Assembly: GCA_025937835.1 (NCBI GenBank) | Contig: JAICQO010000008.1 | Coordinates: forward strand, 1-64,000 | DNA from: Polyangiaceae bacterium | GTDB lineage: Bacteria; Myxococcota_A; Polyangia; Polyangiales; Polyangiaceae | DNA: 64,000 nt | Reading direction: 5' to 3' | Shown: positions 19,774 to 27,622 of the stretch, one piece after another | How the letters are laid out: each line of letters starts with the position of its first letter | Numbering within the stretch: the first letter of the stretch is position 1 | Program-made: the position numbers and the translations under genes | Notes under the pieces: model-generated | Told to the model about the DNA's origin: nothing | The model's database searches: none | What the model saw: only the letters and a program-made list of their open reading frames with translations

Positions 19774-21387
19774 ATGGTGATGCGAACTGATTATCTCGTG
19801 CTCGGCAGCGGCGTCGCCGGTCTGTCGTTTGCGCTGCAGGCTGCGGCTCACGGTCAGGTGGTGCTGCTCACCAAGCGCGCCGCGATCGATACCGCGACCA
19901 GCTGGGCTCAGGGGGGCGTCGCCGCCGTGCTTTCGCCCGACGACTCCTTCGACAAACACGCCGAGGACACGCGAGTGGCGGGCGCGGGGCTGTGCCACGA
20001 AGTCACCGTCGACCTGTGTGTGCGCGAAGCACCGGACGCGATCCGGTTCTTGAGCCAGCTCGGCGCGCAATTTTCCGAGCGCGAGGCCGGCTCGGGCAAC
20101 TTCGATCTCGGCCGGGAAGGCGGCCACAGCGAGCGACGCATCGTGCACGCCGGCGACATCACCGGCCGTGAGATCCAACGCACACTCTGGGAAGCCGTGC
20201 GGGAGTCCCCGAACATCGAGGTGCTCGAGTGGCACATGGGCGTGGACCTGATCACGCTCTCGAACTTCGGCGGGCCGGATCGCTGCTGCGGCGCCTACGT
20301 GCTCGACGAGCGAAATGGGCGGATCGAGACGCTGCTCGCTCGCGCCACGGTGCTCGCCACAGGCGGCGCCGGCAAGGTCTACCTCTACACGTCCAATCCG
20401 GACGTCGCGACCGGGGACGGCGTGGCCATGGCCTACCGCGCCGGGGCCGAGGTCGCGAACATGGAGTTCTACCAGTTTCACCCGACGGTGTTGTACGAGC
20501 CCAAGGCCAAGAGCTTCCTGGTGAGCGAGGCGCTGCGGGGCGAGGGTGCCGTGCTGCGCTTGCCGGACGGCGAAGCGTTCATGAAGCGGCATCACCCGAT
20601 GGCCGATCTCGCGCCGCGCGACGTCGTGGCCCGCGCCATCGACTTCGAGATGAAGCGAACGGGCTCGGAGCACGTGCTGCTCGACATCACGCACCGAAAC
20701 CCGGACTCGGTGCGCGCGCGCTTTCCCAACATCTACGCCGAGTGCCTGCGCTACGGGATCGACGCGGCGGTGCAGGGCATCCCCGTCGTGCCCGCGGCGC
20801 ACTACATGTGCGGCGGCGTGACCACGGATCTGCACGGCCGCACCACGTTGCCGGGCCTGTGGGCGATCGGCGAGGTGGCCTGCACGGGCCTTCACGGGGC
20901 GAACCGCCTGGCGTCGAACTCGCTGCTCGAAGGCCTGGTCTTCGGCCGGCGCGCCGCGCTGAAGCTCGGGCAACAAGCGGAGGAGATCCGCCGCCAGCCG
21001 CTGCCGAACGTGGCCGATTGGCAGACCGGGTCGGCGGTGCCGAGCGACGAGGCCGTCGTGGTCTCGCACAACTGGGACGAGCTCCGGCACACGATGTGGA
21101 ACTACGTCGGGATCGTGCGCAACGACGCGCGCCTGCGCCGTGCGGCTCGCCGTGTGGCGCTGCTCGAGCAGGAGATCCGCGAGTATTACTGGAAGCACCT
21201 GGTCACGCGCGATCTGCTCGAGCTCCGCAACATCGCCACCGTGGCCGAGCTGATCATTGCCTCGGCGGCGAGCCGGCGCGAGAGCCGCGGCCTGCATTTT
21301 ACGACCGACTATCCCGAGAGCCGCTCGGAGTTCGCAGCCGACACCGTCACCAAGCGCGGAGTCCTACCGCACCTGCGCGGCCACTGA
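19774..21387 (+). CDS. nadB: L-aspartate oxidase
   Basis: A 537-aa protein, the family's usual length. It opens with the FAD-binding DYLVLGSGVAGLSFAL and continues with the active-site segment TSWAQGGVAAVL, then FHPTVLY, AAHYMCGGV and TGLHGANRLASNSLLEGLVFG. It oxidises L-aspartate to iminoaspartate for quinolinate and NAD synthesis. nadA and nadC are not in the window. ATG 19774 and ATG 19780 are both possible starts; the second places the first strand as in other NadB proteins. Confidence 0.97.
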   Translation: MVMRTDYLVLGSGVAGLSFALQAAAHGQVVLLTKRAAIDTATSWAQGGVAAVLSPDDSFDKHAEDTRVAGAGLCHEVTVDLCVREAPDAIRFLSQLGAQFSEREAGSGNFDLGREGGHSERRIVHAGDITGREIQRTLWEAVRESPNIEVLEWHMGVDLITLSNFGGPDRCCGAYVLDERNGRIETLLARATVLATGGAGKVYLYTSNPDVATGDGVAMAYRAGAEVANMEFYQFHPTVLYEPKAKSFLVSEALRGEGAVLRLPDGEAFMKRHHPMADLAPRDVVARAIDFEMKRTGSEHVLLDITHRNPDSVRARFPNIYAECLRYGIDAAVQGIPVVPAAHYMCGGVTTDLHGRTTLPGLWAIGEVACTGLHGANRLASNSLLEGLVFGRRAALKLGQQAEEIRRQPLPNVADWQTGSAVPSDEAVVVSHNWDELRHTMWNYVGIVRNDARLRRAARRVALLEQEIREYYWKHLVTRDLLELRNIATVAELIIASAASRRESRGLHFTTDYPESRSEFAADTVTKRGVLPHLRGH

Positions 21388-22186: not shown

Positions 22187-23286
22187 GCCCCAAGATCGCT
22201 CTGTGTTTGCCGGGCGGCGGCGCGATGGGCGCGCTGTATCAGGTGGGCGCGCTCGCGGCGATCGAGGACGCCGTCGAAGGCTTCGACGCCAACTCCTTCG
22301 ACCTGTACGTCGGCAACTCGGTCGGGGCGAGCTTGTCGGCCACGCTCGCGGCGGGCCTGCCGGTGCAGCGCCTGTACCGAGCTTTCCTCGATCCGGCGGA
22401 CGTGTACTTCGGCATCGAGCGCAAGCACCTGTTGCGCATCGATCTCGGTGAGTGGCGGCGCACGTTGATGTCGGCGCTCTCGGCGCTCGGTCACGCCGCA
22501 GGCTCGGCGCTGTCGCGCGAGGCCAAGGCCGTGCCGGCCACGCTCTGGCAAGAGCTCGATCGGCTGTACGACTCGCTGCCCGCGGGCTGGTTCACTCTCG
22601 AGGGTTACGAGCGCTTCCTCGAGGAGTTCTTCGAACGCCGTGGTGTGCCGAAGACCTTCGCGGCCATGCCCAAGCCGCTGCGCGTGCTGTCGCACGACCT
22701 CGACACCGGGGCGCCGGTTTGCTTCGGCGACGAGGGCTACGAGGGCGTGCCGCTGGCCCGCGCCTGCATCGCCTCGATGGCCGTTCCGCCATTCTTCTCC
22801 CCCGTGAAAATCGGCGACCGCCACTACATCAACCCGGGTGCGGGCTCGCTGTCACCGATGGAAGTCGCGGTGCGGGACGGCGCCACCGCGATCGTCGTCG
22901 TGAACTCGATGACCCCGATCTCTGCCGCGTCGGTGCCGACCGGCCACGGTCACCGCGACAGCTTGCGCGACAAGGGCAACATGTGGGTGTTGAATCAGGC
23001 GCTCCGCATCGGCAGCCAGCGCATGGTCGACGACACCTGCCAGCGGCTGAAGGCCGAGCACCCGGCGCTGTCGCTGCTCCGCATCGAGCCGGAGCCGGAA
23101 GACGGCGTGCTGTTCCTCTACAACGCCTCGAGCTTCGACGCGCGCAGGCGGCTGCTCGAGCGCGCCTACACCTCGACCCGCAAGGAGCTCGGGCGGCGCT
23201 TCGCCGCGGCCGATCCCACGCTGCTCCGCGCGGGTTTTCGCCCCAAGACCCCGACCTCACGCCCCTCGTCGCCACCGCCGTCGTGA
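22183..23286 (+). CDS. patatin-like phospholipase-family protein with altered catalytic Asp motif
   Basis: A 367-aa protein. The oxyanion motif LPGGGAMGALYQVGAL and nucleophile elbow GNSVGAS are intact. Where patatins have DGG or DGA (YVDGG in close relatives), this protein reads YINPGAG, so the catalytic Asp appears to be Asn and the following Gly is Pro. It may have weak or no lipase activity, or use another acid. The start is GTG 22183, overlapping the protease stop; its own stop overlaps the next start (GTGA, 23283-23286), so three membrane-related genes are translationally chained. Confidence 0.88.
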   Translation: MSPKIALCLPGGGAMGALYQVGALAAIEDAVEGFDANSFDLYVGNSVGASLSATLAAGLPVQRLYRAFLDPADVYFGIERKHLLRIDLGEWRRTLMSALSALGHAAGSALSREAKAVPATLWQELDRLYDSLPAGWFTLEGYERFLEEFFERRGVPKTFAAMPKPLRVLSHDLDTGAPVCFGDEGYEGVPLARACIASMAVPPFFSPVKIGDRHYINPGAGSLSPMEVAVRDGATAIVVVNSMTPISAASVPTGHGHRDSLRDKGNMWVLNQALRIGSQRMVDDTCQRLKAEHPALSLLRIEPEPEDGVLFLYNASSFDARRRLLERAYTSTRKELGRRFAAADPTLLRAGFRPKTPTSRPSSPPPS

Positions 23287-23777
23287 ACCGCGCGCGCCAC
23301 TGGCTGGCCCTGTCGGGGCTCTTGCTCGTCCTGGTTGCCTGTAACCGGCGCTACAGGATCGGTGAGCATGTGCTCGTCGAATGGGAGGCGGGCAGCGGCC
23401 AGTTCCACCCGGCGTACGTGGTCGACCGCGTCGGTGAGGCCCGCGTCGTCGTGCATTTCGACGGCTACGATTCGCGCTTCGACGAAGAGGTGAGCGTGGA
23501 TCGGATCAAGGGGCGCGTGGAGGGTCTGGTCGCGATGCCGCCTCCGCCAGCGAAGGTCGCGCGCGCCGTCGGCAGCTCCGAGACACCCGATGCCGGCGCG
23601 GCCGTCGTCAACCCGTACAAGGTCGGCGATCGGGTGAAGGTGCGCTGGCGGAACTCGGTGTACCCCGCGGTGGTGCTCGAGGTCGTCGCCCGCGATCGCC
23701 TCAAGGTGCACTACGAGGGCCTCGAAAACGCCTGGGACGAGACGGTCACGCTCGATCGCCTGGTTGGCCGGCGTTAG
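23283..23777 (+). CDS. lipoprotein with two Tudor/chromo-like SH3 barrels
   Basis: A 164-aa protein. It has a lipoprotein signal ending LLVLVAC. Two similar modules follow: YRIGEHVLVEWEAGSGQFHP with AYVVDRVGEARVVVHFDGYD, and YKVGDRVKVRWRNSVYPAVV with LEVVARDRLKVHYEGLENAW. The second ends DETVTLDRL, the first DEEVSVDRI. These are the beta-barrel pattern of Tudor-knot/chromo-barrel domains. In eukaryotes such domains bind histone tails or RNA; in a bacterial envelope lipoprotein their ligand is unknown. The gene is coupled to the patatin-like gene by a GTGA overlap. Confidence 0.8.
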   Translation: MNRARHWLALSGLLLVLVACNRRYRIGEHVLVEWEAGSGQFHPAYVVDRVGEARVVVHFDGYDSRFDEEVSVDRIKGRVEGLVAMPPPPAKVARAVGSSETPDAGAAVVNPYKVGDRVKVRWRNSVYPAVVLEVVARDRLKVHYEGLENAWDETVTLDRLVGRR

Positions 23778-23788
23778 ACGCGGGCCCG

Positions 23789-24136
23789 TCAGTCACCTGG
23801 GTAGTGGCCCATGCTCGCGAGGGCCGTGACGAGCCGGGCTCGATCTTCACTCGACAAGAGCCGCGGCTCGCGCAAGAGGTGGTGCTTGAGCGGGAGCAGG
23901 TAGCTCTGGGCCGCGCGCGCGTCGCCGAGCGTGAGGTGGGAGAGCCCGCGGTACAGGGCGTAGCGCGCGGCCTCGGGCGCGGCCGCGGTTTTCGCTCGAG
24001 CCGACCAGGCCTGGAGCTCGCGCAAGGATTCCGTGGTGCGCCCGGCCTCGTAGTCCGAGATCGCCTGGGAGAGCGGAGAGCCGCAGGCCGAGCCCAGCAG
24101 CAACACGCCGAGCCAGAGCGGGAGGAAGCGGAGCAT
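23789..24136 (-). CDS. small lipoprotein with TPR-like helices
   Basis: A 115-aa protein. It has a signal peptide with lipobox LLGSACGS. The mature part is helical: AISDYEAGRTTESLRELQAW and then EAARYALYRGLSHLTLGDAR, resembling one or two tetratricopeptide repeats. It converges on the Tudor-like lipoprotein gene (11-base gap) and is divergent from the HTH-cupin regulator. Function unknown. Confidence 0.75.
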   Translation of the reverse strand: MLRFLPLWLGVLLLGSACGSPLSQAISDYEAGRTTESLRELQAWSARAKTAAAPEAARYALYRGLSHLTLGDARAAQSYLLPLKHHLLREPRLLSSEDRARLVTALASMGHYPGD

Positions 24137-26743: not shown

Positions 26744-27622
26744 GTGACGCTCGCTCGCTGCCTCTGCGTGATCTGCTTGCTGGCTTGCGGCAGGGTCGAA
26801 AATCTCGGCACCGGTGTCGACGGGACAGCGGGGGCGCCCGGTGGGGACGGTGCGGCCTGCGTTCCTTCGCCCAGCGTCGAAGTGGTCGCGCCTGAACAGC
26901 TCGATACGAGCGGCTGGAGTTCGGAGGCCGAGTGCGACGAAATCGCGGCCGCGATCGAGGAGCGCGTGGGTGTGGTGCCAGCCAGCCAGCCGATTCCGGA
27001 AGAATTAGCCGGGCATTGGCTGGGTGGAGAGGGCGAGGCGCGGATCGAGCTCGTGCTGGATCCCAGCGGGCGAGGACAAATCACGTTAGGTGAGCCCGCG
27101 CCGCCGCCGGTTCTCGACGTCGAGGGTGCATACCTCAGCGGTCTCGGAGAATTCGACGCGGCGGCGATCGGCCGGACAGGTTCTGCGGTGCAAGCGTTGA
27201 GCGGCTTCACCTATCGCGTCCGAGCGCGCGAAGCCCTGAGCGGTGACACGCGGATCAACATCGAGCTCGCAGAGCCTTGGGAAAAGTGGTGCACCCTGCA
27301 GTTACCCGTGCGCCGCGCGGATTGCTACGGCTGCGACTTTGCAGGTGACACCTTGTACGTTGGTGCTTGGTGCGAGGGGACGAGCGCTTGCTTCGTGAGC
27401 CAGTCGAAGCTCGGTGTGCGCGTGCACTGTGGCCGGCTCGCGCTGTGCGGCGCGACCGATTCGGTTTGCCTCTGCACGGAGCACTTTTGTACCTATAACC
27501 GCGAGCTTCACGGCTCGTTCCTGGTCTCGCTGGACGTCGCAGATCCGACGCGCTTGCGGTTCGACGAGGACGCCATCGTGCCCAAGCCACGCTACTTGCA
27601 GCGCGTTCCGGACGAGGAGTGA
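26744..27622 (+). CDS. cysteine-rich lipoprotein, unknown function
   Basis: A 292-aa protein starting at GTG 26744. Lipobox LCVICLLACG near the N terminus, then a Gly/Ala-rich linker. The second half has many cysteines (WCTLQL, DCYGCDFAGD, WCEGTSACF, VHCGRLALCG, VCLCTEHFCTY), consistent with a disulfide-stabilised exported domain. No family recognised; likely a lineage-specific surface or periplasmic lipoprotein. It converges with hflX, 19 bases apart. Confidence 0.8.
   Translation: MTLARCLCVICLLACGRVENLGTGVDGTAGAPGGDGAACVPSPSVEVVAPEQLDTSGWSSEAECDEIAAAIEERVGVVPASQPIPEELAGHWLGGEGEARIELVLDPSGRGQITLGEPAPPPVLDVEGAYLSGLGEFDAAAIGRTGSAVQALSGFTYRVRAREALSGDTRINIELAEPWEKWCTLQLPVRRADCYGCDFAGDTLYVGAWCEGTSACFVSQSKLGVRVHCGRLALCGATDSVCLCTEHFCTYNRELHGSFLVSLDVADPTRLRFDEDAIVPKPRYLQRVPDEE

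Follow-up and report, generated by a model that had tools for sequence, protein, structure and literature searches.

Chromo-like domains in exported bacterial proteins were described by Kaur, Iyer, Subramanian and Aravind (2018, PMC5906684). In the main passages of that paper, such domains carry an aromatic cage, come in two to six tandem copies, are found in alpha- and delta-proteobacteria among other groups, and are stated to occur consistently in secreted proteins. Their predicted ligands are methylated-lysine-like groups in murein or matrix, and the same passages propose an origin of the eukaryotic chromatin readers from exported barrels of bacteria in which the cage was already present. 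On the eukaryotic side, the proteins of the MRG family are nuclear readers of H3K36me3 and H3K4me3 that also contain an MRG domain, and the pocket of one of them, MRG701, is made of H37, Y42, Y62, W65 and W69 (PMC5084153, in the sections on which we draw).

The gene analysed here, located at 23283..23777 (+ strand) of a 64,000-nucleotide stretch of DNA (the window) from a soil bacterium of the Polyangiaceae, a relative of Sorangium, encodes a lipoprotein that belongs to this already described kind of exported tandem chromo-like protein: like the secreted proteins in the main passages of Kaur et al., it is predicted to be exported, contains barrels in tandem and has at least a partial cage. Those passages make no mention, however, of a two-barrel lipoprotein family, of a PPPPxKV linker, of a restriction to one family of Myxococcota or of a gene block with patatin, CPBP and nadB genes, although the lists in the supplement may include members. 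A literature search, outside most subscription journals, returned no paper on the two-barrel Polyangiaceae family; under the same coverage, and with binding assays being one aim among others, it returned no measured ligand for a bacterial chromo-like barrel. We have not seen the gene context nadB-CPBP-patatin-Tudor described before.

The open reading frame has a GTG start, a TAG stop and no internal stops, and codes for 164 amino acids: an N-terminus reading MNRARHWLALSGLLLVLVAC, followed by two barrel modules. In the N-terminus, a short stretch of positive charge leads into a hydrophobic core and then into the lipobox LVAC (residues 17-20, 23331..23342, +). From a direct reading of the sequence, residues 1-19 (MNRARHWLALSGLLLVLVA; 23283..23339, +) are predicted to be the signal peptide and Cys20 the lipidated residue, which places Asn at position +2 of the mature protein. 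Three residues separate Cys20 from barrel 1, which occupies mature residues 5-58 (23352..23513, +; delimited by Pfam, AlphaFold2 and conservation). The linker (mature residues 59-92; 23514..23615, +) includes the conserved motif PPPPxKVxR, a short predicted helix at 71-78 and a low-confidence stretch at 79-88; as a Pro/Ala/Ser-rich tether between the barrels, it measures some 25-43 residues. Barrel 2 covers mature residues 93-144 (23616..23771, +; delimited by VIA-align, profile and conservation). A longer frame of 441 amino acids, at 22452-23777, was rejected as the gene: its upstream part runs in a different frame through the patatin gene, and the family starts at the signal peptide. A scan for sigma-70 promoters and terminators gave nothing informative, and the lipoprotein had no NCBIfam or PADLOC match at E <= 0.01. 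The sequence-only reading had given both modules the pattern Y-x-G-x-x-V-x-V-x-W, V-x-H and D-E-x-V. The last element is correct in both; the spacing of the first is in fact Y-x-x-G-x-x-V-x-V-x-W, and module 2 has K-V-H-Y-E-G in place of the second.

Are these modules truly barrels of the Tudor or chromo type? The Pfam Tudor-knot model (PF11717) matches the whole protein in two stretches, with 33.5 bits where the cut-off is 20.8 (E=3.9e-8), and the MBT model reaches 31.7 bits against a cut-off of 22. Taken singly, barrel 1 scores 23.5 bits with Tudor-knot, over the cut-off, and barrel 2 scores 18.1, under it; in the genome search the values are 22 (over) and 16.4 (under). We collected 47 sequences, made up of the window copy plus 46 taken from the remaining 65 strong matches described below, and aligned 28 of the 47. 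Tudor-knot matches every one of the 28, the window copy among them, at E <= 0.01, and their profile, searched against the PDB, retrieves the chromodomains of Eaf3 (5.2e-7), MRG15 (6.7e-7) and MRG2 (1e-6). A chance motif is thus ruled out, given the Tudor-knot score, the profile matches in the PDB and the agreement of all 28 members. The short Tudor-knot profile also matches 6 of the 14 control genomes, mostly below the cut-off and over it in one, so that single-barrel matches elsewhere mean little alone; what supports a Tudor identity is the combination of tandem match, fold and orthologs.

With respect to the fold, the AlphaFold2 model of the mature protein (mean pLDDT 83.3) contains two five-stranded barrels, both confident, the first with strands at 10-14, 22-30, 35-40, 49-52 and 56-59 and the second with a like set within 98-144. 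The pTM is 0.47, which leaves the mutual position of the two barrels uncertain, and pLDDT falls below 50 in the linker stretch 79-88. The best fold matches are members of the MRG family (MRG15, MRG2, MRG701 and Eaf3, with Z from 9.8 to 8.3). For barrel 2, VIA-align places MRG15 on top (2f5k_B, Z 9.8, 1.7 A over 58 residues), and finds MRG2 in complex with H3K4me3 (4pl6_A, Z 9.4, 1.4 A over 54 residues) and with H3K36me3 (Z 9.4, 1.3 A). For barrel 1 it finds the Tudor domains of UHRF1, TDRD3 and PHF1, with Z of 7.4-7.8, which the tool grades as middling. The top rows of Foldseek, with E from 1.3e-5, are occupied by MBT, Agenet and other tandem readers. Tandem Tudor, MBT and Agenet readers such as L3MBTL, FMRP, ADCP1/AGDP and SETDB1 also contain at least two barrels in series, but superposed over their whole length they fit poorly (rmsd 14-19 A, TM of about 0.3 for the query), so that the agreement with known structures holds barrel by barrel only. 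The double Tudor or chromo-barrel that had been proposed from the sequence is borne out by the Tudor-knot score, the two predicted barrels and the MRG15 and MRG2 matches; a fold unrelated to SH3/Tudor barrels, which would have spoken against it, was not seen. Unlike the MRG proteins, the Polyangiaceae protein is predicted to be exported and lipidated, and consists of two barrels and nothing else.

The MRG chromo-barrels and the Polyangiaceae protein share five cage positions. According to the profile alignment, the MRG15 sequence spaces its cage residues as MRG701 does, and in the MRG15 alignment the MRG-type residues fall on W103, Y108, Y125, L128 and W132 of barrel 2, the spacing being the same save that the loop separating the two tyrosines differs in length. 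The cage of barrel 1 (W15, H23, F40, Y43 and F47) was assigned by likeness to barrel 2. Defined in this way, as aligned positions of the sequence rather than from model coordinates, the cage is strongly conserved among the 47 sequences: in the order just given, the positions are aromatic in 47, 47, 47, 43 and 47 sequences for barrel 2, and in 46, 44, 46, 46 and 46 for barrel 1. All five are aromatic in 43 of the 47 for barrel 2, in 42 for barrel 1, and all ten in 39. Fourteen positions are at least 90% aromatic in the set, and ten of them are those of the cage (the remaining four are Y5, Y93, H39 and H124). The aromatic cage that the sequence-only reading had wished to see checked is hence present as conserved aromatic residues at the MRG positions. 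The window copy itself is atypical, with five of five positions aromatic in barrel 1 and four of five in barrel 2: it has H23 for Tyr, F47 for Trp and L128 for Tyr, His or Phe, and these three departures from the family cage may have weakened its binding sites. With a median charge of -3 (-5 in the window copy), barrel 1 is acidic and so well matched to a cationic ligand; barrel 2, with a median of 0 (+2 in the window copy), is close to neutral.

The question arises as to what such a cage would be used for. The explanation we favour, and to which we give about an even chance, is that the protein is a lipid-anchored, bivalent envelope receptor or tether for cationic amines, possibly methylated, carried by peptides of the envelope or of the extracellular matrix. 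Signal peptidase II would cleave before Cys20, and the lipid would anchor the N-terminus. Barrel 1, which starts at mature residue 5, would then lie close to the membrane, and barrel 2 would be held out on the Pro/Ala/Ser-rich tether. Each barrel is a predicted chromo-barrel of the Tudor-knot type with a pocket of five aromatic residues; the equivalent pocket of MRG proteins grips methylated lysine via cation-pi contacts, and here the cage would bind an amine on a peptide, two weak sites providing avidity. Of this picture, the computations support the fold, the cage residues, the lipobox, the conservation and the gene block, while ligand binding, the nature of the ligand as a peptide-borne amine, retention in the envelope and any cooperation with the patatin described below are inferred. 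The binding of peptides at the surface or in the periplasm, as had been suggested from the sequence, may follow from the same features; for glycans, the alternative ligand of that suggestion, the analysis gave no supporting evidence.

The pocket may also serve for something simpler. It is possible, though we consider it doubtful, that the barrels bind peptidoglycan stem peptides or unmodified envelope peptides in an SH3b-like manner, through the diaminopimelate amine or through Lys or Arg, in which case the protein would be a wall tether and not a reader of methylation. Aromatic cages can also accommodate lower-methylated amines, and a predicted exported lipoprotein with a barrel adjoining its anchor agrees with a wall tether. 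Moreover, the main passages of Kaur et al. favour murein or matrix peptides as ligands, by virtue of architectures parallel to those of bacterial SH3 domains (PMC5906684). However, the nearest structural matches of the barrels are methyl-lysine readers, and the full five-residue cage found in most sequences would exceed the need of a plain amine.

In a second alternative, the barrels would be structural protein-protein modules, made for one fixed partner, for each other or for the Pro-rich linker, with the aromatic residues packing. Three residues of the linker motif, P67, P70 and V73, never vary among the 28 aligned sequences, a hint of some specific contact that may be intramolecular. Nevertheless, the ten cage positions vary mostly among Tyr, Trp, Phe and His, and core packing would not require all five aromatic residues at the mouth of the barrel. 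We regard this alternative as rather improbable.

As regards anchoring, a cysteine is found three residues ahead of barrel 1 in 47 of 47 sequences, and this invariance upholds the lipoprotein call made from the lipobox in the window; a rule requiring both a lipobox and a start is satisfied by 36 of the 47 and failed by 11. In Myxococcus xanthus lipoproteins, lysine at +2 correlates with an inner-membrane location (8 of 12 proteins), and alanine at +7 with a location in the extracellular matrix (PMC3222651, in the sections on which we draw). In our set, position +2 is Lys in 21 of 47 sequences and otherwise Ser, Gln, Thr, Asn, Glu, Arg, Gly or Ala, and position +7 is Val, Ile or Pro. With Ala at +7 in 0 of 47, the M. 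xanthus rule lends no support to matrix export, which is unlikely on this basis.

The two-barrel lipoprotein is conserved in one family, the Polyangiaceae to judge by its named members. The source genome has one copy. Within the order, 93 of 183 genomes give a match at E <= 1e-3, and strong matches (E <= 2e-30) are found only in the window's own family, in 66 of 108 genomes (in one of the 66, G134, the match covers residues 3-95 only). Across the phylum, the profile matches at 1e-10 in 71 of the 371 genomes with a completeness of at least 90; the best profile match outside the family is at 2.9e-21, and many of the weaker ones span the profile incompletely. Among named genomes, a scan yielded 77 loci from 112 candidates. 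The strong loci carry titles of the kind Polyangiaceae, Myxococcales, Sorangium, Polyangium or Minicystis; at the weakest end there are, among others, Burkholderiales, Opitutaceae, spirochaetes and Acidobacteria.

Other proteins of the Polyangiales (loci L161-L180) contain one to five barrels of the same family, and several have starts that resemble, by eye, a signal peptide or lipobox. Their architectures differ from that of the two-barrel lipoprotein: they combine barrels with LCCL domains, or place barrels on either side of one membrane helix. Two exported-looking proteins (L172:2165-3433 and L173:1398-2420) are fusions of LCCL domains (PF03815, 119.6 and 118.8 bits, respectively) with Tudor-knot barrels, and LCCL is not named as a partner in the section of Kaur et al. 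on secreted chromo-like domains. In four open frames (L166, L170, L175 and L177), chromo-barrels stand on both sides of a single hydrophobic stretch resembling a membrane helix, an arrangement that would put one barrel in the cytosol. In the main passages of Kaur et al., by contrast, the bacterial domains are said to occur consistently in secreted proteins. The N-terminus of L177 also has a CxxC...CxxC stretch that is zinc-ribbon-like.

In the window, the Tudor lipoprotein gene closes a block of four genes on the + strand. The first is an L-aspartate oxidase-like gene (19774..21387, +; FAD_binding_2 and Succ_DH_flav_C domains), named nadB here by our interpretation; it is followed by a gene for a CPBP/Rce1-like intramembrane protease (PF02517; 21404..22186, +), a member of the conserved block, and by one for a patatin-like phospholipase (PF01734; 22183..23286, +). 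The patatin gene lies directly upstream of the Tudor gene, its TGA overlapping the GTG start (GTGA, 23283-23286), so that the two proteins are probably translated together. The order nadB-CPBP-patatin-Tudor recurs in many loci. Neighbours were counted by tblastn against the fetched stretches, since the gene calls came from a crude GC-position heuristic that in some genomes picks up the antisense shadow of the patatin gene. Of the 47 loci, counting the window, 25 have a same-strand patatin gene no further than 250 bp upstream of the Tudor gene, and in another 7 it is 0.8-2.4 kb upstream. It was not found in the fetched stretch at 15 of 47 loci, some of these stretches being short (2.2 kb for L027, 3.4 kb for L032, among others), such that a missing neighbour there means little.

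Several other proteins are encoded nearby. On the - strand of the window, 23789-24136 codes for a small protein that starts much like a lipoprotein, with a lipobox-like LLGSAC, and matches nothing in Pfam or NCBIfam; it is found again near the Tudor gene in several related loci. In nine loci (L025, L038, L041-L045, L047 and L072), the next gene downstream on the same strand encodes a conserved protein of about 150-210 amino acids, several times with an apparent signal sequence (by eye); it is absent from that place in the window. Further on, the 292-residue product of 26744-27622 (+) has an N-terminus like that of a lipoprotein (LLACG) and matches no Pfam family.

The link with patatin extends to whole genomes. 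Among the 108 genomes of the family, with thresholds of E <= 2e-30 for the Tudor protein and E < 1e-90 for patatin, a patatin ortholog is present in 50, and 49 of these 50 also have the Tudor protein. One genome (G170) has patatin only, 17 have the Tudor protein only and 41 have neither; weak patatin matches in G068, G082, G083 and G105 (E from 5.2e-25 to 7.5e-23) were left out of the count. The corresponding P is 6e-15, with genomes treated as independent though they are related. At 1e-30, patatin was found in none of 18 re-searched family genomes without a Tudor match, the positive controls giving 2 of 2; at 1e-20, a weak patatin appeared in one of these Tudor-less genomes, G068. A distance of 25-35 kb separates the two genes in four genomes (G148, G149, G150 and G152) from the genus to which Polyangium belongs; they are about 490 kb apart in G130, taken as Minicystis, and on different contigs in G109. 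The co-occurrence thus does not rest on adjacency alone.

Such an association invites the idea that the Tudor protein works with the patatin and the CPBP protease in membrane-lipid turnover, its cage binding a quaternary-amine lipid head group of the choline or betaine type at the membrane. The recurrent gene order, with patatin within 250 bp in over half of the loci, the co-occurrence even where the genes are apart, and a barrel 1 that adjoins the lipid anchor all speak for it. However, the 17 genomes with the Tudor protein and without patatin indicate that the former does not need the latter, nearly a third of the loci showed no patatin within the stretch fetched, and the co-occurrence was counted without phylogenetic correction. 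In addition, the neighbouring patatin has, by eye, no export signal; it is probably in another compartment, which speaks against direct contact. We judge the lipid-turnover explanation very doubtful. A separate candidate, an anti-phage (CBASS) patatin cassette, is not supported. Three PADLOC phospholipase models match the patatin, with their best stretches within residues 7-83 only, and its scores are far under the cut-offs of the defence models (38.7 bits against 200 for CBASS_lipase, 30.2 against 400 for DS2_1_antiphage).

Returning to the lipid-anchored receptor or tether for amines, the Polyangiaceae family is a convenient test case, being small, with two barrels and a nearly complete cage. 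The protein is likely to be soluble without its anchor, cultured members (Sorangium, Polyangium, Minicystis) make the family accessible, and the recurrent gene neighbourhood points to a first candidate partner. In its boldest form, which we think unlikely, the protein would sit in the envelope and read methylated or quaternary amines, either on the cell's own envelope or matrix or on the surfaces of prey or kin, and would be genetically tied to patatin. If this were true, these bacteria would possess a functioning pathway for reading amine marks outside any nucleus, and not just the relic of a fold.
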